Assembly: GCA_937139405.1 (NCBI GenBank)
Contig: CAKZPV010000004.1
Location: 124,001-188,000 of the forward strand
DNA length: 64,000 nt
DNA from: an uncultured Nitrospirota bacterium
GTDB lineage: Bacteria > Nitrospirota > Nitrospiria > Nitrospirales > UBA8639
Direction of reading: 5' to 3'
The translations under genes and the position numbers were made by a program. The notes beneath the pieces were generated by a model. That model was given only the letters and a program-made list of their open reading frames with translations. It did no database searches and was not told where the DNA came from. This document shows, piece after piece, positions 1 to 12,643 of this stretch. Position 1 is the first letter of the stretch; the number at the start of each line of letters is the position of its first letter.

Positions 1-3000
1 ATTGTCACATCGATCAGTCGAAACACAATAGCATCACCCAAGTAGGCCTGAATCATGGCCGTGCTCGGATCACCATGTGTCACACTACTAAAAATTTTCG
101 ATGGGTCCGGGTTATTTGCCAATCGTTGTGCGAATGGCTCTGCTCGGAAGTTTAACGCCCCACCCGTCGTATGAGTTCCCCCATTCAAGAATGGCATTGG
201 CGTCATTTTGATTTGGTCATTAGGCGGCATAATAAATGACACCGTTCGACCAGCTTCTAAGGCGACATCGATAGGTTGTCCCGGAGGATTGCCTGCTGTC
301 ACCACATTCACGGTATGTGGCACCGTATCCATAATATGCACCATAAGTTCACGGAAACTTCCCGCCACATCATGGCCAACCCGTTCCACCGCATGAATGT
401 CGGCAACTGGTCCGGTCCGAATTGGCTCACCCGTTTTCGGATCATGCCAGGTGGAATTGAATGGTTCGGCAATCATCGTTCCGACTGCACCATGTGGCCA
501 CGTGGTTCCACCAAAGGCATGGTCATGCCAGAACACACTACCAACATCGGCATCCACCCAGAATCGCTGCCGCACATATTCCACGGTCACAATCTCGTCA
601 ACGGGATGATTGAATTTTAATGGATTGGCAAATGTCAGAGTCTTACCATCAATTTTCGCGATGCGTCGGACTTCTTTTTCTTTCACATTATCTGCGCCCA
701 CCAAGATCGGAATGCCTACATGATACTGTGCCGCATTCGTTACTTGGAGCGTCTTCGATCCCGCTTTTACTGCCTTCGTGACCTTGGCATTCATCGGAAT
801 CGGCAACCCCTTTTTGGTTGGCTTTGTAAATTGGGTGAAAGGGCGCATGGACTGCTCATATGAGAATCCAGAAATCACGCCATCGGATGCTTGATTATCA
901 AATTGAAAGAAATGGAAATGCGTATTGATTTTGGAAGATTGGAAGTTAGTGATATCGTCATCCAACCATTCGCTAGTCAGCGTCCAATCAATACAATCAT
1001 AGACATTGGCTCGGACCACCAACGGAAATTTCTTGTCGTTGTCCGCTCGAACGTCTGCTTCTTCTTCATGCACCACGTACAGCAACCCATTAGGGTCAAC
1101 AATCGCTGGTTCCTTTCCTTGGGCTGCTGATAATTCTATAGGCAATTTAATGAAATGTACGTTGTAATCTTGTGAACCGGCACGCTCCGGGCACAAACTC
1201 CATGGCCCGTTTTCGCCAGCTTTGGCCGGTTCCACTGACCGTGTGCCATCCTCATTTAATCGAATCATTTCCAACCATGGAGCTGGATTATGATCGTTCG
1301 AAAATGGCACCCGTTTTCCGAAATGTGGCGTGAGCCATGGCCATGCCACTTTTCCAGTTGTGGGTTCGAACCAAATCGCCCGACGCTCACCAGCTTTATA
1401 CCCTTGCCATTCTGGGCGATATTTGGGATTTTCGCCAATCGATGGTTCTTTTTCGCTCATGGCCTTCGCCCCGTCCCAGACCCAATCAATCACGGTAGCA
1501 TCATAGGCCTTCATCTGACCCAATTGATCATCTTTATGACCGGGCTTCCCTTGATTGCTCAACTGCATTTCTACCCAGTCTTTCACGTTAACGACGGCTG
1601 GATTAGCTTTCCAATCGCTCTTCCCTTCGCCAACAATTTTAAATTTCGAACCAAACCAATTGACGGTCTTACCTACCAATTGATCGGACGGCACTGGCTT
1701 ATGAATACGGTCTAACCGATCTGGCAACTCACGCAGGGGCGCCATCACATCATTTTGGACACCTGGCATCTGCAAGGTGTTATACACACGCCAGTAGCCC
1801 CACATGCCAGCCACATAATGATGCGCGACATGACAATGGAACAGAAAATCTCCCGCCAACCATTGGCACAAACCTGAACCGCATTCTGTCTCCAGGTCCA
1901 AGGCTTCTGATGGCCCGATGACTTCCACATCAACGCGGTCAGATTTTGTACGAATCACCGGATATTTTACAGGCCCACTTTGACCGGTATTCCACACTGG
2001 CATTTGCGTTGCGCGTGGACTCCGTTGCCATCGAATAGAGCCACCATGCGGATGATGGGAATGGAAGACTTCCGAACCACCATGCACAATACGAAACTTC
2101 GCCGGATCACCTAAATAGCTCCGAGGAATCGTTGGTGCCGCATCCCCAAACGTATAAGAACTATAGGCCATCGATTCATCTTCAAACCCAAAGTATTCAT
2201 GCTGCACATGCATGTTATTGATGCCAAACGGCTCACTTCGATAGTTAAGCGCACGGGCACCTGGACGATAGGCATCCGTTAACGGATCACGTTGAGGCAA
2301 AAAGTCTCCATGCTTATTGACTGGACGAAACGCTTCATCACCCACTTCATGATAAATAAGGACGAATTCACGAAAATCCGGCCCGTCACCATTATCAATC
2401 ATCACTTGCCAGCCACTGCTAGCTGCTGTGGCTGGGCCGGTCCCTAAAGGCTCAAAGTAGTTCGACCCTCGAGGTTCAACGACAAACACCCCGAACATGC
2501 CCATGACCGTTAATTCCCGGTCATTGCTGAAGGTATGAAATTGTTTTCCACCCTCTTGTGCTTCTGGATGGATGTACCATTCCATATTAATGGTCTGGCC
2601 TTCCTCTGCCACTGAATCAGCATTCGTGGTGAGGGCTGGCTGACCTGTTTCGCTCATGACCATATCCGAACCATTAATGTGCAAACTGACTTCTTCGCCA
2701 AACTCTAAATTGTTACGAAGTGTGATCTTGACGCAATCGCCTTGATTGCCACGAATGACCAATGGTTGAATCCATTGATCTTGAATGCCATTTTTTACAC
2801 CACCCGGGTCGTTATGCCCTTCCGTCTCGCGCGCCGCCGCATTCTTGGCTTCTTCCTCACGAATTTTTTCTACATTTTCGGTTAAGGCGTACATATACCC
2901 GGGGTAATAATCCAACCATTGATTCAAGGTGATTTCTACATTGATGGCGGATACATCGTAATTTCTCACAGGTGCCGTTTTTGGACACAACCCCCCTTTC

Positions 3001-3389
3001 ATGGAAACCGGTTCTACTCCTGCACTACTCGCGAGCAAACCGTTCCCTGGTCCACCTCCATATTGGTGAATCATCGACATGGAATTAAACGCACCGGTGT
3101 TGTCCCCATTGTGATCCATGTCTTTCTGCATTTGCTGCATCATCCGTTCATGCTGCTGCTCGACGAGGGCCGCCCGTTCCGCACGGCCTTCCATTGCATC
3201 TTCCACAATCGTTTGCCCCTTGAGCTTTTCAGCCCATCCAGGCGACTGTGACGTCATCCCTACGGGATGGACATGCTCCGTTGCAGCGTTTTCAGCCTTG
3301 ACGAATGCTGGAGTCCCCCACAATGTGGCCCCACCAAACAAGGCTAAGAACACCGAAACCGTGAATAAAGTCCGTTTACCCTGATACAT
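1..3389 (-). CDS. Very large multicopper oxidase, MnxG-like (C-terminus beyond window)
   Basis: An uninterrupted minus-strand frame of 1129 codons starts at the ATG ending at 3389, after a GGAGG ribosome site, and runs off the left edge. The N-terminus is a signal peptide followed by a Met/Gln/His-rich stretch. Copper motifs are visible: His237 in a cupredoxin strand, H443-S-H-H-P-H, then H518-C-H-x3-H-x4-M529 (type 1/type 3 site), and further on H824-F-H and W-H955-D-H957. The HCH block therefore precedes the HxH pairs, the reverse of small laccases; I recall the same order in the Mn(II) oxidase MnxG. The stretch after H826 (FFQFDNQASDG) also recalls MnxG/McoA proteins. Probable role: periplasmic or outer-surface oxidase; Mn(II) oxidation is inferred only. 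Its promoter is sigma-54 type (3610-3625). Confidence 0.9.
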   Translation of the reverse strand, partial: MYQGKRTLFTVSVFLALFGGATLWGTPAFVKAENAATEHVHPVGMTSQSPGWAEKLKGQTIVEDAMEGRAERAALVEQQHERMMQQMQKDMDHNGDNTGAFNSMSMIHQYGGGPGNGLLASSAGVEPVSMKGGLCPKTAPVRNYDVSAINVEITLNQWLDYYPGYMYALTENVEKIREEEAKNAAARETEGHNDPGGVKNGIQDQWIQPLVIRGNQGDCVKITLRNNLEFGEEVSLHINGSDMVMSETGQPALTTNADSVAEEGQTINMEWYIHPEAQEGGKQFHTFSNDRELTVMGMFGVFVVEPRGSNYFEPLGTGPATAASSGWQVMIDNGDGPDFREFVLIYHEVGDEAFRPVNKHGDFLPQRDPLTDAYRPGARALNYRSEPFGINNMHVQHEYFGFEDESMAYSSYTFGDAAPTIPRSYLGDPAKFRIVHGGSEVFHSHHPHGGSIRWQRSPRATQMPVWNTGQSGPVKYPVIRTKSDRVDVEVIGPSEALDLETECGSGLCQWLAGDFLFHCHVAHHYVAGMWGYWRVYNTLQMPGVQNDVMAPLRELPDRLDRIHKPVPSDQLVGKTVNWFGSKFKIVGEGKSDWKANPAVVNVKDWVEMQLSNQGKPGHKDDQLGQMKAYDATVIDWVWDGAKAMSEKEPSIGENPKYRPEWQGYKAGERRAIWFEPTTGKVAWPWLTPHFGKRVPFSNDHNPAPWLEMIRLNEDGTRSVEPAKAGENGPWSLCPERAGSQDYNVHFIKLPIELSAAQGKEPAIVDPNGLLYVVHEEEADVRADNDKKFPLVVRANVYDCIDWTLTSEWLDDDITNFQSSKINTHFHFFQFDNQASDGVISGFSYEQSMRPFTQFTKPTKKGLPIPMNAKVTKAVKAGSKTLQVTNAAQYHVGIPILVGADNVKEKEVRRIAKIDGKTLTFANPLKFNHPVDEIVTVEYVRQRFWVDADVGSVFWHDHAFGGTTWPHGAVGTMIAEPFNSTWHDPKTGEPIRTGPVADIHAVERVGHDVAGSFRELMVHIMDTVPHTVNVVTAGNPPGQPIDVALEAGRTVSFIMPPNDQIKMTPMPFLNGGTHTTGGALNFRAEPFAQRLANNPDPSKIFSSVTHGDPSTAMIQAYLGDAIVFRLIDVT

Positions 3390-3517
3390 ACTCCGACCTC
3401 CTATTACATAAAGGCGGTTAGTGAAAAAAAACACAACTCAACTTGAATATTATTGGGCGTGTGACCGAAATTTCTTCTCTCGTTGAGAAATCCTATTTCC
3501 TCGTTTAATCAATAAAA

Positions 3518-3598
3518 TGCCGACATTGGATGTCCTCTATCGTTCAGGAGGTTGGGCATTCCGGAGGCCGGTCCATCACAGCCCGCCCAATGTCGGCA
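3518..3598 (-). other. Long inverted repeat in the oxidase 5' leader
   Basis: Arms 3518-3529 and 3587-3598 are perfect 12-bp inverted repeats enclosing 57 nt. With the sigma-54 promoter at 3610-3625 the transcript would start near 3599, so the stem would lie at the very 5' end of the mRNA, with about 210 nt of leader before the start codon. On the minus strand the distal arm is followed by ATTTTATT. A second pairing (TTGGGC with an internal GCCCAA) would compete with it. A structured or attenuating leader is inferred. Confidence 0.5.
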
Positions 3599-3609: not shown

Positions 3610-3625
3610 AGCAACAACAGTGCCA
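3610..3625 (-). promoter_or_regulatory. Sigma-54 (-24/-12) promoter of the multicopper oxidase
   Basis: Read on the minus strand the site is TGGCAC-N5-TTGCT, with the invariant GG and GC separated by exactly 10 nt, as sigma-54 holoenzyme requires. It points at the oxidase gene about 220 nt downstream. The same element plus flanking bases recurs at 4984-4999 in front of the barrel protein. Confidence 0.85.
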
Positions 3626-3903: not shown

Positions 3904-4674
3904 TCAGAAGGCGATGCCGAAGTAGGCACCAGCAGTACCAAAATTGTTCGTGGTATCAGTTTGGCCCGTTGCTAAATGAAAACGCCCATCGACGCCAAGA
4001 TGAAGCGCTTTCCACACTCTGACCTGAGCCCCAACCGCGAACTGCACTCCAACATCCAAAACCGTCGTATCATTAGAGGGAGGACTGATGACATGAAAGT
4101 CTAATCCGGCAGGGATGATCCATGGGCGAAAACGACTGCCTTCCATAAACATAATTTTCGGTGCAACATTCACGGTCAGCATCGTGATTTGGACTTTTGT
4201 TTTCTTATTTCGACTGCCCGTACATGCTGCCCCTCCCGTCGCAAAATCGCATGTCGTCGGAACCGCCTGCTGAACTTTTTTAGAATCAAATCGTTTGAAT
4301 TCCACCCCAATTTCTCCCAACACCCACGTCCCAGGAAACAAATCCCAAATATCTCTGGTAAGGACGAGATCCAGGCCAGCTCCCACGTGGTACCCAGAAT
4401 CACCATCATTACTTCCATTGAAACTAAAAACATCGGTCTCCACCTCACTAGACCGATCACTTGTTGCCCAGGCACCGCCGCCGCGGAAGAAGACCATATT
4501 TCCTGTTTCTTGCACAGCACCAGGAGATGAAGACAGCGTTTTTTGTTCTAATCGTTCCAGGCGCTCTTCTACGGTTGCAGCTTGAGCCGCACCGATTCCG
4601 GCTAGGGCCCAGAACAACGCACACACCATCAACCAGGAAAAACGATTTCGCATACGATTCGAATCTCTGCTCAT
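3904..4674 (-). CDS. Outer-membrane beta-barrel protein with coiled-coil N-terminus
   Basis: The 256-residue protein has a signal peptide ending at AQA (about residue 32) and a short heptad segment (VEERLERLEQK). Alternating beta-strand sequence follows and ends in phenylalanine, as outer-membrane barrels do. One internal pair of cysteines (CDFATGGAAC) could form a disulphide. The start ATG has a GGAGG site in front. It shares its promoter type and upstream motifs with the multicopper oxidase, so the two probably work together, for example as oxidase plus porin or anchor. Function is not recognised beyond the barrel fold. Confidence 0.75.
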   Translation of the reverse strand: MSRDSNRMRNRFSWLMVCALFWALAGIGAAQAATVEERLERLEQKTLSSSPGAVQETGNMVFFRGGGAWATSDRSSEVETDVFSFNGSNDGDSGYHVGAGLDLVLTRDIWDLFPGTWVLGEIGVEFKRFDSKKVQQAVPTTCDFATGGAACTGSRNKKTKVQITMLTVNVAPKIMFMEGSRFRPWIIPAGLDFHVISPPSNDTTVLDVGVQFAVGAQVRVWKALHLGVDGRFHLATGQTDTTNNFGTAGAYFGIAF

Positions 4675-4983
4675 CTCGCCACCTCCCTATAGATTAAGCA
4701 CAAATGAATATGGGTTTCGCGGATTAACACCAAAGGCTGTTGATCAAAGTCACGCCGCCACCGACCCGATGATCTCACTTGTTTATGAGGAGGCGCTCCT
4801 GGAAACACATCAGACAGTGCAGGCATACCAACCGCTAGACAAAAGATCATCCGAACATTGATGAGTCACACAAGAAAAATGCAGTACTCCTTGCCTCCCT
4901 CATGTTGTTCTCTTGTAAAGATCGGAGGTTCCAGCGAAGAGACAATCCATCACACCGTGCCCTCATCAGCAACAGGGCAAAAC

Positions 4984-4999
4984 AGCAACAACAGTGCCA
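4984..4999 (-). promoter_or_regulatory. Sigma-54 (-24/-12) promoter of the barrel protein
   Basis: The minus strand reads TGGCAC-N5-TTGCT with the 10-nt GG-GC spacing. The 16-bp core is identical to that at 3610-3625, and identity continues a few bases downstream. The promoter lies about 310 nt upstream of the ATG at 4674, giving a long leader. Leader fragments GTGATGGA and CCTCCG are also shared with the oxidase leader. Confidence 0.85.
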
Positions 5000-5221: not shown

Positions 5222-6637
5222 TTACGAGATTTGATAGGTTCGTAATTTATTGTACAAACTAGAACGACTAATTTTGAGGAGACGAGCTGCACGAGTTTTA
5301 TCACCCTTGGTCTTGGCGAGAGTCTGAAGAATATGATCACGTTCGGCTACTTGGCGTGCAGCTTGGCTCACGGAATTCAAATCCCCATTCAAAGAAGATC
5401 GATCTTTTTGGTCAAAAAAGTCCGTTGTCCGAAGTACCGTATGACGGCAAATCACAACAGCCCGTTCGATCAAATTTTCTAATTCACGAACATTTCCCGG
5501 CCAGGCATATTTCGACAACGCCCGTAATGCCTCGGGATCGACAGTCAAGGACGAGCGTCCATGCCGACGAGAAGAGGCATAGACGAAATGAGCCGCTAAC
5601 AAAGGAATATCTTCCTGCCGTTCTCGAAGCGAGGGAACTTGTAAAGGCAACACGGCTAAGCGGTAATACAAATCTGCGCGAAATTGTTTGGTCTTCACTA
5701 ACTCATCTAAGGGCCTATTCCCAGCAGAAATCACCCGCACATCCACTTTGATCGATTGGCTACTTCCAACAGGTTTGATTTCTCCTTCTTGTAAGACTCG
5801 AAGCAAGCGAGCTTGAAACGCGGGCGTCGTATCCGCAATTTCATCTAAAAAAATAGTACCCCCTTGGGCTTCTTCAAAAAGACCCTTTCGATCAGCCACG
5901 GCTCCCGTAAATGCCCCACGGATATGGCCAAACAGTTCGCTTTCCAGCAAGGTTTCAGGTAACGAACTACATTCCACTACAACAAAGGGCTGAGCCTGGC
6001 GGCGACTTAATGCATGAATGGTTTTGGCTACCAATTCCTTACCGGTTCCACTTTCACCTTGAATCAACACAGTGGCCTCACTCGCCGCGACCAATTGAAT
6101 CATTTCCACCAACTGTTGAATAGACTCGCTTTCTCCAATGAGCGACTGAATGGCAGTCTCTCCTCTGGTGGTGTCCTCCTTAGGAACTTGGACTGCTTTG
6201 ATATTTTGTTGACGCGTGACAAGACTCTCACTTCCACGCATACCCATCATCACGGCAAAGTGCGTCGCCCCCTGCTCACTTCTCAATGGCACTGCCCGAG
6301 GGAGAGGACACATCGCAGGTGACTCAACAGTCGATGAATAGCTGAATGAAGCATTAGAAGCCTTTTCGCTTGCCTGAAACAGGCTGGTTGCCGGGCAGGG
6401 TTCACATGCAGTTGGTTGTGAATCACACGAATGAGAGAGAGTCGTGGTTTCGCCACAAGTTAAGGGGCAGCCTTTTGTAATGAGATCGGCCGCAGGATTG
6501 GCATAGACTAATTCCATTTGTGGATTGAAAATGACGATAGGCTCATCTAAATGATGCGCTAATAATTTCAACCCCTCAATGCGCGAGTGAACATCTTCGG
6601 GAACTTCAGGTCCAATTGGCGAATACGATCCGGCCAT
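5222..6637 (-). CDS. Sigma-54-dependent activator with Cys-rich PAS-like sensor, AAA+ and Fis-type HTH
   Basis: This 471-residue bEBP has an N-terminal PAS-like domain (about residues 20-130) with six cysteines: C57, C61, C71, C78, C81 and C110. The AAA+ domain has Walker A GESGTGKE (194-201), the sigma-54 contact loop GAFTGA intact at 241-246, and Walker B TIFLDE (261-266). A Fis-like helix-turn-helix ends the protein (KTRAARLLKISRSSLYNKL). It lacks a receiver domain; a stand-alone receiver is encoded 42 bp upstream. The cysteine cluster suggests metal or redox sensing (inference). Its likely targets are the two sigma-54 promoters just downstream, at 4984 and 3610. Confidence 0.92.
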   Translation of the reverse strand: MAGSYSPIGPEVPEDVHSRIEGLKLLAHHLDEPIVIFNPQMELVYANPAADLITKGCPLTCGETTTLSHSCDSQPTACEPCPATSLFQASEKASNASFSYSSTVESPAMCPLPRAVPLRSEQGATHFAVMMGMRGSESLVTRQQNIKAVQVPKEDTTRGETAIQSLIGESESIQQLVEMIQLVAASEATVLIQGESGTGKELVAKTIHALSRRQAQPFVVVECSSLPETLLESELFGHIRGAFTGAVADRKGLFEEAQGGTIFLDEIADTTPAFQARLLRVLQEGEIKPVGSSQSIKVDVRVISAGNRPLDELVKTKQFRADLYYRLAVLPLQVPSLRERQEDIPLLAAHFVYASSRRHGRSSLTVDPEALRALSKYAWPGNVRELENLIERAVVICRHTVLRTTDFFDQKDRSSLNGDLNSVSQAARQVAERDHILQTLAKTKGDKTRAARLLKISRSSLYNKLRTYQIS

Positions 6638-6679: not shown

Positions 6680-7096
6680 TTAAGAAATATTTCCGCACGG
6701 ATTGATAAGACAGATTTGGCAAATAAAAGACTTCAAATCCTTGATGTGAAGAGGTTTCTCAAAGTATCGTGTGGCACCATGCTCTAATGCTTTGGCCTTG
6801 GATTGGCTATCACCATGAGCAGTCATCACCACAATAGAACTCTCGGGAGAAGAAGCTTTCAGTAATCGTAAATATGGATACCCCCCATCTGGAATCTTCA
6901 AATCCGTCACAATGACTTGAGGCTTAACTCTCTTCAGAGCATTCAACGCTTCGTTCCCATCATGAGACTCAACGACACGACAGTTGTTTTCCTGAAGGGC
7001 ATCTGTCAACAACGCCCGCATCGCTTCATCTTCGTCAACCACCATAATGGTGCAAGCTTCCTCTCTTACTTGTCCATGAACCGGAATGGTTTTCAT
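6680..7096 (-). CDS. Stand-alone response-regulator receiver
   Basis: A single CheY-like receiver of about 138 residues with no output domain. Visible features are the acidic DEDEA cluster near the N-terminus, the phospho-acceptor aspartate in VIVTDLKIPDGG, the conserved threonine in VVMTAHG and the lysine in YFEKPL. I chose the ATG at 7096 because GGAGG precedes it; an upstream GTG at 7111 is possible. It ends 42 bp before the bEBP gene and is probably co-transcribed. No histidine kinase is adjacent, so its partner is unknown. Confidence 0.85.
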   Translation of the reverse strand: MKTIPVHGQVREEACTIMVVDEDEAMRALLTDALQENNCRVVESHDGNEALNALKRVKPQVIVTDLKIPDGGYPYLRLLKASSPESSIVVMTAHGDSQSKAKALEHGATRYFEKPLHIKDLKSFICQICLINPCGNIS

Positions 7097-7297
7097 CTCG
7101 CCTTCCTCCACCCCTCAAAGATTGCATTTCTCAATCAATAGAACCGTTCCCGATAATTAAACTAGAGCAATATCCAGGCCTTCTCTATTGAAGCCAAATC
7201 ACAATAATTGCCCCATTTTGGGAAATGAGAAGGACATTGGGGAGAATACAATGGGGGATTTCTCCACAGAATGTTGAGCAAATAGAATGCAGCCAGG

Positions 7298-8227
7298 TTA
7301 GGATTTCTTCAGAGATCGCAACACAAGTACCGAGCAAGGGGCATGCTGACTGACATGATGTGACACACTTCCCATCAATATCCGCCTGAGACCAGTGGTC
7401 CCCTTGGAACCAACCACAACTAAATCTGCTTTCTGTTGCCGCGCTACTTTGAGGATTGCAGAGGCTTCATGTCCTTTTGCCAAGCGCTCTTCAATGTTGA
7501 AGGGAAAGGAAGACAGCGCATCTCGAGCATCTTTCAATATCCGTACCCCAACAATACCTCGATCCTTGCATAAATCTTTGGCTAACTTGCTAAATTCCGT
7601 CCAACTCTTTCCAGCACGATTGACCAACTGCTCCGTTTCATACAGCTGTTTTTTGATCACATGAAGCAGCAACACCTTTGACTGAGCAGGCAACGTCAAA
7701 CCTTTGAGAAAATGGGCAGCTTTACATGCATCAGGCGATCCATCTATCGCCAGAAGAAGTTTCAATGTTGATAAGGATTGAGCCTTTCCCGTCGTTGGTC
7801 GTCCAACGAGGACAGAGCATGAGGCTTCTTTCAAGACCCATCCACTCACGCTGCCCATAAACATTCCGGAAACTCGAGAGAGTCCTCTTGAGCCAAGAAC
7901 CACAAGATCAATTTTTTTTCTTCGAATAGCCGCTAAAATTTCTTGCCCAGGAATGCCCTTCACGATTATCGATTGCACCTTCAAAGTTTCCGATGCCAAC
8001 AATTTCTCGACCCGCCGAAGTTCTGCATGAATGTCAGGTATGGGCTTTCCCATTCCGCCAGATTTTTTGTATTTTGATGTTTTTGTAGATGCAGCCCTCT
8101 TCTCATCGTCAATCGTCGTAACATGCAATAGGAGCAAACTTGACCCAGCGGGCCATTGAAATTTGCGCAATAAATTAATAGCAACCTTTGAATCCTTTGA
8201 TTGGTCAACTGCTAACAAGAGTTTCAT
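7298..8227 (-). CDS. Tandem universal stress protein (UspA family)
   Basis: Two UspA domains in one chain of about 309 residues. Each ends with the nucleotide-binding signature: GSRGLSRVSGMFMGSVSGWV in the first and GSKGTTGLRRILMGSVSHHV in the second. Both start with the typical LLLAVDQS / LLLAIDGS strand. I place the start at the ATG at 8227, where domain homology begins; this overlaps the end of the P-type ATPase gene by 23 nt, suggesting translational coupling. Cytosolic; USPs of this kind bind ATP and help stress survival. The exact start could be 8236 or 8293. Confidence 0.88.
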   Translation of the reverse strand: MKLLLAVDQSKDSKVAINLLRKFQWPAGSSLLLLHVTTIDDEKRAASTKTSKYKKSGGMGKPIPDIHAELRRVEKLLASETLKVQSIIVKGIPGQEILAAIRRKKIDLVVLGSRGLSRVSGMFMGSVSGWVLKEASCSVLVGRPTTGKAQSLSTLKLLLAIDGSPDACKAAHFLKGLTLPAQSKVLLLHVIKKQLYETEQLVNRAGKSWTEFSKLAKDLCKDRGIVGVRILKDARDALSSFPFNIEERLAKGHEASAILKVARQQKADLVVVGSKGTTGLRRILMGSVSHHVSQHAPCSVLVLRSLKKS

Positions 8228-10946
8228 GAAAGACATCTTTCCGTTTGTGGGACATCCATTGACGACAAGTTTTTTCAAAACCAACGATTCCATAGATCAT
8301 CAGACTCCATCCGAGAATAAGACCCCACTCTGCCTGATCCAAGGGTGCTGATTGAAACGTCTGGTTCATCCATGGCTTATAGGTAAAGAACAATTGCAAC
8401 CCAATCATCACAGTCACTCCAATCAAGAGCCAGTGGTTGGAAAACCACCCAATCTGCCACAGTGAAGACTCAAGTGAGCGACAATTAAACACATAAAATA
8501 TCTCTCCAAACACAAACATATTCACCGCCGCCGTCCGAGCAATTTCAACAGCATATCCCTGAGAAAGTTCCCATTGAAATAACCCAAACGATCCAATCAA
8601 AAGCAGCACTCCAACCAACACAATTCGAAAGACCAGCGTACCCGTTAAGATGGGCATGCGTGGATCACGAGGCGATCGCGCCATTAACCCTGGTTCTTTT
8701 CGTTCAAAGGCAAGCATGAGGCCCAACAACACGGCAGTCGTCATGTTGATCCAAAGAATTTGGACAGGCAAAATCGGCAAGATTGTACCGGTCATCACCG
8801 CAACAAAAATGACCAAGCCTTCGCCAATATTCGTGGGAAGCGTCCAGGTAATAAACTTCACCAAATTATCAAATACCCCACGCCCCTCTTCGACCGCAGC
8901 TTCTATCGAAGAAAAATTATCATCAATGAGTACCATATCCGCAGCTTCCTTCGCGACTTCAGTTCCCATGTTCCCCATCGCAATCCCAATATCCGCTTGT
9001 TTCAGCGCTGGCGCATCATTCACCCCATCTCCAGTCATGGCTACAATATGACCATGCACTTGCAAGGCATCAACCAAGCGAAGTTTTTGTTCGGGCGCAA
9101 CACGCGCAAAGACGGCAACCTGTTCAACCTTCTCAGTCAGTTCAGCATCAGATAATCTCGCAATCTCGCGACCAGTCAATGCATGTAATCCCTTTCCCGG
9201 AGATGTCAGACCGATCTGTTTAGCGATAGCGATAGCGGTTCCACTATGATCACCCGTAATCATTTTGACGTGAATACCTGCACGATGACAGCTTTGAATC
9301 GCTTGAGTCGCTTCAGATCGAGGAGGGTCCATCATACCCTGCAATCCTAAAAACAGCAGACTCTTCACATCATCATGGGAAATTGAAGACTGATCCGATG
9401 GCAATACTTTTGAGGCAAATGCCAGAACACGCAAGCCTTTCTCTGTCATCACATGGACCATCTGATGAATCGCCTCTCCATCCACTTCGACAAACTGTCC
9501 AGGAGAACCCTCAACCCTATCGCACCGAGAGACCACTTGCTCTGCAGCCCCTTTCACATACATCACCCGATCAACGTCATCTGGTTGACTATGCAACGTC
9601 GCCATGAATTGATCTTGCGATTCAAATGGAATGGCATCCAAACGTGGAAATTGTTGCGTTATTTCACTGGACGAGAGTCCGACTTTTGCAGCGACAGCAA
9701 GCAGAGCCCCTTCAGTTGGATCGCCGTCAACATGCCAGCCCCCATTCTTATCAACGAGCTGGGAGTCATTGCACAATAGCCCAGCCTTTACACATTCTAG
9801 TAACGGCGGATACGAAACAGGATCGATCACTGTCCCTTGACATTGGACATTCCCAAGGGGGAGATATCCCAAACCAGATATTGAGAATAAGTCATGGTCC
9901 ACAAAAACTTCCTGCACAGTCATTTGGTTCTGTGTCAGAGTCCCTGTCTTGTCAGAACAAATCACGGTGGTGCTACCCAATGTTTCCACTGCAGGAAGTT
10001 TTCGCACAATGGCATGACGACGAGCCATACGAGAAACGCCAATGGCCAATGTAATCGTCATCGCCGCAGGCAAGCCTTCAGGGATAGCCCCAACGGCTAA
10101 TGCGACAGCTGCCATAAACATGTCAAAAGCCGCTTCTCCACGAAGCCACCCAACAACAAACGTCATGCCAGCCAAGCCCAAAATGACCCACAACAACGCC
10201 CCACTGAAATAGGCAACCTTTCTGGTCAGTGGAGTTTCTAGCACATCCGCAGCTGCCATGAGCCCTTTGATTTGGCCTATCTCCGTCGCATCGCCTGTTG
10301 CGACGACCACACCCAATCCCCGCCCCGCCGTCACTAATGTCGAGGTATAAGCCATGTTATTTCGATCAGCCAACACCATATCTTTTGGGAGCACATCAAC
10401 CTGCTTCGAAGCTGGAACGGATTCTCCCGTAAGAACCGATTCATCAATCTGCAAATAACGGACTGTCACCAGTCGGAGATCTGCGGGGACTTTATCACCA
10501 GCTTGCAAGACCACCAGATCCCCTGGCACGAGCGTTTCGCCAGGAAGCCGTTGTTGTTGACCAGCCCGTATGACCGTGGTCACCACATCCATTGTTCGAG
10601 CCAACGCATGAATGGCTTTGACGGCTTTAGACTCTTGGATATACCCAATAATGGCATTCATCAGGACCACACCAAAGATGACACCCGAATCGACCCATTC
10701 TTGAAGAAAGGCGGTGACAAGCGTCGCGACGAGGAGGAGATACACCAATGGCTGATGAAATTGATACAAAAAAAGAAGAACAGGATGAGTTCCTTCTTGA
10801 GGAGTCAGTTTGTTCGGACCAAACTGCGTCTGCCTGTGTGAAACTTCAAACGCATCCAACCCTCGCGCGCTATCAGTTTCCAAGAGAGTCAGAACTTCAG
10901 GTAGGGCAAGATGATGCCAATGTTTTTCTAATAAGTTGTCAAGCAT
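8205..10946 (-). CDS. P-type cation-transporting ATPase (P2, Ca2+-ATPase-like)
   Basis: The 913-residue protein has the full P-type plan: cation-ATPase N-domain, TGES actuator loop (173-176), PEGLP in TM4 (289-293), the phosphorylated aspartate D332 in DKTGTLT, and the hinge GDGVNDAPALKQADIGIAMG. A long hydrophobic C-terminal half supplies the remaining membrane helices. The PEGLP motif fits P2-type pumps (Ca2+, or less defined cations such as Mn2+), not heavy-metal P1B pumps, since no CPC is present in TM4. GAGAAG serves as ribosome site. The gene is followed by, and overlaps, a universal stress protein. Confidence 0.9.
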   Translation of the reverse strand: MLDNLLEKHWHHLALPEVLTLLETDSARGLDAFEVSHRQTQFGPNKLTPQEGTHPVLLFLYQFHQPLVYLLLVATLVTAFLQEWVDSGVIFGVVLMNAIIGYIQESKAVKAIHALARTMDVVTTVIRAGQQQRLPGETLVPGDLVVLQAGDKVPADLRLVTVRYLQIDESVLTGESVPASKQVDVLPKDMVLADRNNMAYTSTLVTAGRGLGVVVATGDATEIGQIKGLMAAADVLETPLTRKVAYFSGALLWVILGLAGMTFVVGWLRGEAAFDMFMAAVALAVGAIPEGLPAAMTITLAIGVSRMARRHAIVRKLPAVETLGSTTVICSDKTGTLTQNQMTVQEVFVDHDLFSISGLGYLPLGNVQCQGTVIDPVSYPPLLECVKAGLLCNDSQLVDKNGGWHVDGDPTEGALLAVAAKVGLSSSEITQQFPRLDAIPFESQDQFMATLHSQPDDVDRVMYVKGAAEQVVSRCDRVEGSPGQFVEVDGEAIHQMVHVMTEKGLRVLAFASKVLPSDQSSISHDDVKSLLFLGLQGMMDPPRSEATQAIQSCHRAGIHVKMITGDHSGTAIAIAKQIGLTSPGKGLHALTGREIARLSDAELTEKVEQVAVFARVAPEQKLRLVDALQVHGHIVAMTGDGVNDAPALKQADIGIAMGNMGTEVAKEAADMVLIDDNFSSIEAAVEEGRGVFDNLVKFITWTLPTNIGEGLVIFVAVMTGTILPILPVQILWINMTTAVLLGLMLAFERKEPGLMARSPRDPRMPILTGTLVFRIVLVGVLLLIGSFGLFQWELSQGYAVEIARTAAVNMFVFGEIFYVFNCRSLESSLWQIGWFSNHWLLIGVTVMIGLQLFFTYKPWMNQTFQSAPLDQAEWGLILGWSLMIYGIVGFEKTCRQWMSHKRKDVFHETLVSS

Positions 10947-10970: not shown

Positions 10971-11540
10971 CTAGTCGTCCTCTATATCCAACTTGCCTCC
11001 CCTGTGACAGTTGAGACACCTGGCAAAATGCCCAAGGGTATGCACCCCCTCACCTTCTTCAAGAATATGACTAACATGCGAGTTGGAAAGCAGGATCATC
11101 CTCTTTTTCCCCTGGGCTGATCTCATCCAGTGACAATCTGAGCAGGATGTCGCTCTCGTTACTCGAAAAATAAATTCTCCATGAGGATTCTTCATGGCGC
11201 CTGTAGTAATCGAAGCCAGGACCCCTTGATGTTCGACATGACACGCCAAACAGGGTTCCGCTTTTTTAATGATGTCTGCATGAAAACGGGTCACAACGGA
11301 TTCAGATCGCGCAGCAAAATTCGCGCTGGAATGACAGGAGACACATTTCTGAGAAGTCGGGCCCTGAAAAGGTTCATGACACGAACCACATGAAGTCACA
11401 TCCGTATGATACTGACTGAGATCTCCGGGCGCCCAGAGGGCCTCGGTGTATTCCGGTGAGAACCACATTACGACTACGATTATCACAGCCGTTACACTCC
11501 AAATGAGTGGGGCAACCCATGATCGTAGACACCCAATCAT
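10971..11540 (-). CDS. Membrane-anchored pentahaem c-type cytochrome
   Basis: The 189-residue protein starts with one transmembrane helix (about residues 10-28), with no clear cleavage site, and carries five CxxCH motifs: CGSCH, CVSCH, CLACH, CSDCH and CLNCH. Several extra histidines (FHAD, VEHQG, SHVSH) could be distal ligands, so a cytochrome c3/NapC-like bis-His arrangement is likely. It is adjacent to the membrane protein at 11541, whose stop it abuts. Together they resemble a quinone-linked electron-transfer pair (inference). Redox partner and substrate are unknown. Confidence 0.85.
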   Translation of the reverse strand: MIGCLRSWVAPLIWSVTAVIIVVVMWFSPEYTEALWAPGDLSQYHTDVTSCGSCHEPFQGPTSQKCVSCHSSANFAARSESVVTRFHADIIKKAEPCLACHVEHQGVLASITTGAMKNPHGEFIFRVTRATSCSDCHWMRSAQGKKRMILLSNSHVSHILEEGEGVHTLGHFARCLNCHRGGKLDIEDD

Positions 11541-12128
11541 TTAAACGCCTCCAAAAAACAATGCACCACCAATATGGAACAAGGCCAAGACCACAAACGA
11601 CCAGGACAAAGGTCCATGAAAGCACTTCCACCATCGCAAGGCCTCTTCCTGTAAGGCCAAATCATGCAGCTGTGCTTCAACGATTTCTTCTTGCATGCCC
11701 TCAAACGCCATCTGATGACGGCGTTCATACAACTGTCGAAACGCCCAATGATGTAACGCCTGTCCGACAACCCCACTCATCACCACCAGCACCATGGCGA
11801 CTAACGCGAGGATCGGCACCCATGCATGAAAATGCACACCTGCATGAACAGAGATAATTAGAGGGCCTAAAACACCAGACACCATATGCACCTGGAACCA
11901 ACGTTTTGGCCAAACCTGATTCGGATGCTGCCACCGTTTTAATGGATACACAAAGGTCAATCCAATGAAGCTCAAACCAATCCACCCAACTAGGTGTCCC
12001 ATTAGGGTATGCCCGAATGGCCGACCTGGAGTCGTACTTAAGAAATATTCAAGAAGAAAGGCGCTTATGATGGTCAAGGATACAAGGCCAAAGACGAGAG
12101 CCGTGCGACGGGAAAGAGTTGAAAGCAT
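11541..12128 (-). CDS. Polytopic membrane protein, cytochrome b-like
   Basis: About 195 residues with roughly four to five hydrophobic helices and histidines inside or next to them (GHTLMGHLVGW, VHMVSGVLGPLIISVHAGVHFH, ALFHIGGALF), as in b-type cytochromes of the b561/NarI kind. A charged cytosolic loop (about 130-165) separates the last helices. It ends exactly where the pentahaem cytochrome frame begins, so the two are coupled. Start: the ATG at 12128; an upstream TTG at 12176 overlaps the preceding gene and is less likely. Haem b binding is inferred from the histidine pattern only. Confidence 0.65.
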   Translation of the reverse strand: MLSTLSRRTALVFGLVSLTIISAFLLEYFLSTTPGRPFGHTLMGHLVGWIGLSFIGLTFVYPLKRWQHPNQVWPKRWFQVHMVSGVLGPLIISVHAGVHFHAWVPILALVAMVLVVMSGVVGQALHHWAFRQLYERRHQMAFEGMQEEIVEAQLHDLALQEEALRWWKCFHGPLSWSFVVLALFHIGGALFFGGV

Positions 12129-12172
12129 GTTGAATGATCGTTGGATCTTATGACGATACACACATCCTAAAG

Positions 12173-12643
12173 TCAAAGTGCCTGAGTAAAAACGAGAGAA
12201 GAGGTTGGCAGGAGAGCCCGCAACTTTATTCCGACAATCTCTGGATTCTTAATGCCACGAAATCTCAGGGTCCGATTCGAATCATGAGACTGAATGACCA
12301 CGGTCCCTATTCCCAAGAACTTTGCGAAAGGACCTTGCGTGACCTCAACAGCATGGATCATATTAAGGCTGGCGCATCTAATCGTTTTTCCAGAATATCC
12401 ATTTCGAATCATGACTTGCCGTGTGCTGATAACATATTTTGCCCAATACCGAAGACACACAGCCACTCCGACCAGGAAGCTTGCCCCTACCATCCACATC
12501 ATCCAACCAGGAACTTCGGAATACAGAAATATTGCCCCTCTCGAGGCCGTCCAGAGGCTCAAAAAGTATAACCAACTGAACTGCCCCCAAGACGGATAGG
12601 CCTCCCACAAAATCCGTTCGGATGCCTCTTGATCAGATACCAC
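12173..12643 (-). CDS. PH-domain membrane protein
   Basis: The 156-residue protein has two N-terminal transmembrane helices. A bacterial PH-like segment follows: YVISTRQVMIRNGYSGKTI, then IHAVEVTQGPFAKFLGIGTVVIQS and LRFRGIKNPEIVGIKLRALL. This is the layout of YdbS/YdbT-type (bPH2) proteins. It is the first gene of a three-gene set with the cytochrome b-like protein and the pentahaem cytochrome. Its function in that set is unknown. Confidence 0.7.
   Translation of the reverse strand: MVSDQEASERILWEAYPSWGQFSWLYFLSLWTASRGAIFLYSEVPGWMMWMVGASFLVGVAVCLRYWAKYVISTRQVMIRNGYSGKTIRCASLNMIHAVEVTQGPFAKFLGIGTVVIQSHDSNRTLRFRGIKNPEIVGIKLRALLPTSSLVFTQAL

Follow-up and report, generated by a model that had tools for sequence, protein, structure and literature searches.

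What does the giant multicopper oxidase (MCO) encoded at one end of this Nitrospirota DNA oxidise, and how is its synthesis controlled? In our study, the question was examined in a 64,000-nucleotide stretch (the window; contig CAKZPV010000004.1, positions 124,001 to 188,000) from an uncultured member of the Nitrospirales. We consider it fairly probable that the gene encodes a secreted oxidase belonging to the core of the Nitrospirales, which would work with a blue-copper partner, be transcribed from a sigma-54 promoter and have its translation gated by a leader RNA. Nitrospira matter as nitrifiers worldwide, and giant copper oxidases are encoded by nearly all of the Nitrospirales sampled; with a leader RNA, a promoter, a regulator pair and a blue-copper partner to go with it, a loosely defined "putative MnxG" becomes a unit that can be tested. 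The host genome (G000, with contigs such as C4 and C50; other G numbers denote genomes of relatives and L numbers denote loci) is 4.46 Mb in size and 98% complete, and it resembles Nitrospira in its proteins and gene context. It was found to contain an NXR-like alpha-subunit homologue (an open reading frame, ORF, of 1029 amino acids, aa); a search of it for amoA gave no match, and no control matched in that search either.

The oxidase gene and its copper sites

The first-pass annotation, made from the letters of the window, described a giant MCO with a permuted order of copper sites. The ORF is real but incomplete in the window, where it was found from nucleotide 3 to 3434 on the minus strand and ran past the edge. 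The whole gene lies at G000:C4 122512-127434 (minus strand) and encodes 1641 aa when counted from the first GTG. The ATG at window position 3389, which is preceded by AGGAGGTCGG, was taken as the real start and gives a protein of 1626 aa (G000:C4 122512-127389). The N-terminus MYQGKRTLFTVSVFLALFGGATLW was of Sec type by inspection, and the product is predicted to be a secreted, very large six-domain MCO. Counted from this ATG, the four copper motifs stand exactly where they had first been placed:

1..3389, minus strand: 5' two thirds of the six-domain MCO gene, residues 1-1129 of 1626, the remainder lying beyond the window
2046..2063, minus strand: HSHHPH, residues 443-448 (domain 2), with a type-1 (T1) and two trinuclear ligands; invariant columns
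1803..1838, minus strand: HCHVAHHYVAGM, residues 518-529 (domain 2), with two trinuclear and three T1 ligands; invariant columns
912..920, minus strand: HFH, residues 824-826 (domain 3), with two trinuclear ligands; from the alignment
519..527, minus strand: HDH, residues 955-957 (domain 3), with two trinuclear ligands; from the alignment

The T1 ligands are H443, C519, H524 and M529 and the trinuclear ligands are H446, H448, H518, H520, H824, H826, H955 and H957. All 12 were present and formed invariant columns in a 45-sequence alignment; they aligned with the ligands of the Bacillus-type MnxG and of haloarchaeal, Streptomyces and proteobacterial giant MCOs; no trinuclear ligand was missing. 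The alignment places the T1 site in domain 2 and has domains 2 and 3 share the trinuclear site, the arrangement that defines bacterial six-domain MCOs. The three-domain laccases, CueO and CopA are organised differently from this protein, with a length of about 500-650 aa and the HCH block in their last domain. The best solved relative was MnxG (9bxa_A, E 1.7e-73), with a co-linear match. An AlphaFold model of residues 121-1129, built from 44 remote homologues, had a predicted local distance difference test score (pLDDT) of 52; a Foldseek search with this low-confidence model returned 9bxa at rank 1 (E 1.2e-32) and rat ceruloplasmin at rank 2, and of the model the top match alone was used as evidence. 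Length, co-linearity with MnxG and the fold match are compatible with six cupredoxin domains, the model being of low confidence and covering residues 121-1129 alone.

In bacterial six-domain MCOs, domains 2 and 3 hold the trinuclear site between them, and the site order is the same throughout (PMC3600357). The permuted order, which had been read as a feature of Mn oxidases, is therefore real and MnxG-like but a mark of the whole family and no evidence for manganese. The QFD.QASDG stretch, cited to the same end, is likewise real, but it fails to single out Mn oxidases because FD....DG was invariant across the whole six-domain family in the 45 sequences.

Family placement, putative blue-copper partner and candidate substrates

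In a 47-row maximum-likelihood tree, which was without authentic MofA and P. putida sequences, the Nitrospira MCOs formed their own clade (support 100) and joined acidobacterial and Streptomyces proteins; the analysis did not place the protein among laccases or nitrite reductases. The Bacillus-type MnxG and the Leptothrix/Rubrivivax/MnxG-type group fell outside this clade. MofA could not be identified, as ORF inspection found no mofB or mofC beside the MCO at either Leptothrix locus or at the Rubrivivax locus L123. By tree and HMM score, the place of the protein is in a distinct clade, core to the Nitrospirales, within the known six-domain MCO family. Homologues were encoded by 58 of the 60 related genomes, which puts the gene far beyond chance. 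Across the phylum, 93 of 246 genomes had one, and 89 of these belong to the same class; the viral contigs searched contained no relative. Since almost all nitrifying Nitrospirales have the MCO, a core function is favoured over a specialised manganese trait.

A second giant MCO, of 1698 aa, was found on contig C50 (L009 8434-13530, plus strand). In its domain 3, a LysM (peptidoglycan-binding) insertion separates one His pair from the other, and the splitting of matches in many Nitrospiraceae points to conservation of this insertion. Two tandem blue-copper partner genes follow this paralogue.

The partner gene downstream of the window MCO (G000:C4 120666-121625) encodes about 320 aa with a C-terminal CarboxypepD_reg-like domain. 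Among 52 homologues, H-D-I was invariant and C-x2-H-x2-M was present in 51, which we take to mark a type-1 blue-copper site of the amicyanin kind; the protein is thus a putative amicyanin-like blue-copper protein. It was present in the same 58 of 60 genomes as the MCO, the same two genomes being without both. Its gene follows at least 64 of 83 giant MCO genes in the same orientation, at a median distance of 188 bp and frequently as two copies in tandem. The link of this blue-copper gene to giant MCOs is new here.

In the established chemistry of MCOs, electrons enter one at a time at the type-1 copper, and O2 is reduced to water at the trinuclear site. Both sites are intact in the sequence. 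The electrons would come from a small reductant in the periplasm; this could be Mn(II), Cu(I) or Fe(II), or else a blue-copper protein, and the downstream amicyanin-like protein may exchange electrons with the MCO.

That the enzyme acts on Mn(II) outside the cytoplasm and converts it to Mn(III/IV), either for defence against reactive oxygen species (ROS) or as a metal trait feeding the blue-copper protein, is a doubtful reading of the locus. MnxG is the closest solved structure and shares the site order, but the clade is separate, identity to any characterised Mn oxidase is about 27%, and the score against the NCBIfam MnxG model NF041487 was 117.5 bits against an equivalog cut-off of 3100. The same model gave 333 bits with the Bacillus-type protein, 667 with a Sphingobium protein and 716-739 with two Leptothrix discophora proteins. 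MnxG of Bacillus sp. PL-12 (9bxa, a subunit of MnxEFG) likewise has six domains and the same site order and is co-linear at about 25% identity, but it contains about 1220 aa against 1626 aa here and has MnxE/F neighbours where this MCO has a blue-copper partner; no mnxE/mnxF-like small genes were found in the gene neighbourhood of the MCO or its orthologues. MnxG and McoA of P. putida GB-1 and the giant MCOs of Leptothrix discophora resemble the protein in site order and size class but belong to a distant clade. The sigma-54 control described below is a further likeness, as mnxG and mcoA of P. putida have predicted promoters for integration host factor and sigma-54 (PMC11930936). Nitrospina gracilis and Ca. 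Nitrospira defluvii share a conserved MnxG-like MCO, almost certainly of the same protein group, for which Mn(III)-based protection against ROS was proposed; the excerpted text of that source (PMC3578206) describes no partner module, promoter or leader RNA. All Ca. Manganitrophaceae carry two novel MCOs (PMC9040806). Against a manganese role stands the near-universal occurrence of the MCO in sampled Nitrospirales, and some Nitrospira have a different, MnxG-type MCO besides.

These extra MnxG-type giant MCOs were found in other Nitrospira genomes (L081, L088, L101, L104, L114 and L138), that of L101 reaching 933 bits to NF041487. They group with proteobacterial or acidobacterial proteins, which suggests horizontal acquisition, and they are better Mn-oxidase candidates than the window gene. 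In the host genome, the MnxG model matched the two giant genes alone.

Oxidation of Cu(I) or Fe(II), in copper detoxification or as a ferroxidase in the manner of CueO or ceruloplasmin, is a minority possibility that deserves some weight. Ceruloplasmin and algal ferroxidases are among the relatives with six domains (PMC3600357), rat ceruloplasmin came second in the Foldseek search, and copper resistance proteins are neighbours of the Streptomyces and Priestia homologues; the conserved Nitrospira cluster, on the other side, is without copper efflux genes. SCO1-like and PCuAC-like copper chaperones, found by inspection beside the acidobacterial Nitrospira-type giant MCOs (L195 and L196), also speak for this substrate class. 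The two acidobacterial loci had neither the leader RNA nor the blue-copper partner.

The blue-copper gene is tightly conserved next to that of the MCO, and this also bears on an unlikely third reading, an O2-consuming electron sink that is fed by the blue-copper protein, perhaps with the multihaem cytochrome c and cytochrome b561 of the cluster, and protects O2-sensitive metabolism. Nitrospira use the O2-sensitive reductive tricarboxylic acid cycle (PMC6606698), and both cytochrome genes lie in the cluster; these are, however, conserved within the genus only, and docking of the blue-copper protein to the MCO is hypothetical.

A structured leader RNA upstream of giant oxidase genes

Between the MCO gene and its promoter-like site, the window was found to contain a candidate leader RNA of about 79 nucleotides (nt), with the following features:

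3519..3597, minus strand: structured leader RNA, three-way junction P1/P2/P3 (covariation and fold), 5'-terminal on the predicted transcript
3563..3574, minus strand: nearly invariant leader core GGACCGGCCTCC, hairpin GGA-CCGGCC-UCC (leader comparison)
3393..3401, minus strand: extended Shine-Dalgarno (SD) sequence GGAGGTCGG, a 9-nt complement of the leader core with one U-G pair
3610..3625, minus strand: perfect sigma-54 -24/-12 promoter-like site TGGCACTGTTGTTGCT (sequence match)

The three-way-junction fold had a z-score of -2.78. In a MAFFT alignment of the first 18 leaders, P1 had changed on both sides in 8 of its 11 pairs. Among 47 aligned leaders, 94% of cells pair and double changes occurred in 20 of 25 pairs; this alignment was fitted to the model and leans towards the structure, unlike the 18-member one. 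The covariation score was 0.479, compared with 0.209 +/- 0.010 for shuffles (0 of 500 reached it) and at most 0.139 for slid structures. The covariance model found the leader in 39 of the 60 relatives and in 100 of 157 genomes of the class, and once in the host genome. Of its 97 matches, 71 had a listed giant MCO match 79-561 nt downstream of them; 21 further matches were checked, and 20 proved to be upstream of a giant MCO and one was cut by a contig edge. Overall, 91 of 92 testable matches precede a giant MCO gene, five of the 97 being left out. A tandem pair of leader RNAs was observed at a contig end (L337 154-217 and 254-314, minus strand; G041:C112). No match to the host leader was found in Rfam 15 at E <= 10, and the other leaders of seven loci gave none at E <= 1 save an unrelated chance one. 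No consistent U-run of an intrinsic terminator was found after P1. The leader appears to be a previously uncatalogued, novel part of the system.

The distance from the end of a sigma-54 site to P1 is 13-15 nt in 31 of 31 leaders of the Nitrospiraceae and in about 12 of 16 of a second family, against a background of 1.3% of windows. In the host, the -12 GC of TGGCACTGTTGTTGCT sits 13 nt ahead of the first base of the leader. Transcription from sigma-54 promoters starts about 12 nt beyond the -12 GC; therefore, the leader RNA would lie precisely at the 5' terminus of the transcript, which would open with the conserved three-way junction.

The core of the leader, GGACCGGCCUCC, was nearly invariant and complementary to ribosome-binding sites. 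The SD was GGAGGCCG(G) in 32 of 39 leader-bearing MCO genes, the window copy being GGAGGTCGG. Exactly GGAGGCCGGTCC-ATG, in which the reverse complement of the 12-nt core precedes the start codon, was found in 31 of 58 leaderless giant MCO genes. In a sample of 147 GGAGG-type starts, 20 extended by CCGG to GGAGGCCGG, and all 20 belonged to giant MCO genes. The 12-mer occurred three times in the host genome, in the leader, in the SD of the leaderless LysM paralogue on C50 and at one site elsewhere (C31), which was neither a gene start nor a leader and was taken as chance. The computed energy of the leader with the C50 start region was -17 kcal/mol. Given the complementarity of the core to the SD of its own gene and, across 12 nt, to the SD of the paralogue, the leader most likely acts as a gate on translation that answers to some signal, with control of the SD in cis and possibly in trans. 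The identity of that signal should reveal the substrate of the MCO.

Several points weigh against this reading. The pairing of the core with the SD in cis was absent from the computed minimum-energy fold, and by that model a loop-SD pseudoknot or pairing in trans would be the sole compatible modes. The 12-nt SD motif is retained in genomes without a detected leader, for example G027, G029 and G036. For the enzyme, the trinuclear geometry rests on the alignment with MnxG because the AlphaFold model is weak. Co-loss of the leader and the paralogue SD was also considered; one genus has a degenerate SD (G023, G030 and G033), but the three genomes named above keep it, and co-loss is not claimed.

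Two other meanings of the core were weighed. It could be coding, as part of a short upstream peptide MDRPPECP acting as a Pro-Pro stalling leader: an ATG was present in 31 of 47 leaders and a TTG in several more, in frame to give xDRPPE. This is improbable, as the start position is TAG or AAG in several members (AAG in two of the same genus), no synonymous changes were found within the 12-mer, and P1 covaries as a helix. Equally remote is a protein-bound double-stranded DNA operator; the leader and paralogue-start sites are the same duplex in opposite orientations, but the covariation of P1/P2/P3 and the fixed placement at +1 point to RNA, and the sites overlap the SD exactly.

We return to the leader as a translational regulator. 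It resembles SD-sequestering leader RNAs and translational riboswitches in being a structured 5' leader with an SD-complementary sequence, and differs from them in the absence of an Rfam match, the link to giant MCOs and the trans complementarity to a paralogue. It may tentatively be regarded as the founding member of a class of regulatory RNAs made from sigma-54 promoters, acting on its own MCO in cis and on the LysM MCO in trans and possibly sensing metal or redox state. If true, the cis/trans pairing would be an unusual coordination of two paralogous enzymes.

Regulators and neighbouring genes

The conserved gene order in the Nitrospiraceae comprised a nucleotidyltransferase, a PH-domain protein, a b561-like protein, a multihaem cytochrome c, a response regulator, a sigma-54 activator, the MCO, the blue-copper protein and a Tll0287-like haem protein. 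The corresponding features of the window were as follows:

5222..6637, minus strand: sigma-54-dependent activator (Sigma54_activat and HTH_8 domains), conserved upstream of the MCO in the Nitrospiraceae
6680..7111, minus strand: single-domain response regulator adjoining the activator, conserved
3904..4674, minus strand: predicted outer-membrane beta-barrel protein (weak OMP_b-brl match)
4984..4999, minus strand: second, identical sigma-54 site, upstream of the barrel gene
10971-11540, minus strand: multihaem cytochrome c with five CxxCH motifs, syntenic with the MCO cluster within the genus
11541-12176, minus strand: cytochrome-b561-like membrane protein, syntenic with the MCO cluster within the genus

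From the conserved synteny and the sites, the response regulator and the activator probably drive the -24/-12 promoter. The regulator pair with a perfect -24/-12 site upstream of the MCO is new here. The leader of the barrel gene (window 4675-4999, minus strand) shares a short GTGTGATGGA stretch with the MCO leader and had no covariance-model match. A P-type ATPase was also found (window 8205-10946, minus strand), which was closest to PMR1-type Ca2+/Mn2+ pumps, with 687 bits to TIGR01522 against a cut-off of 798. This PMR1-like gene was present within the MCO cluster in the host genome and in one relative examined (G008).

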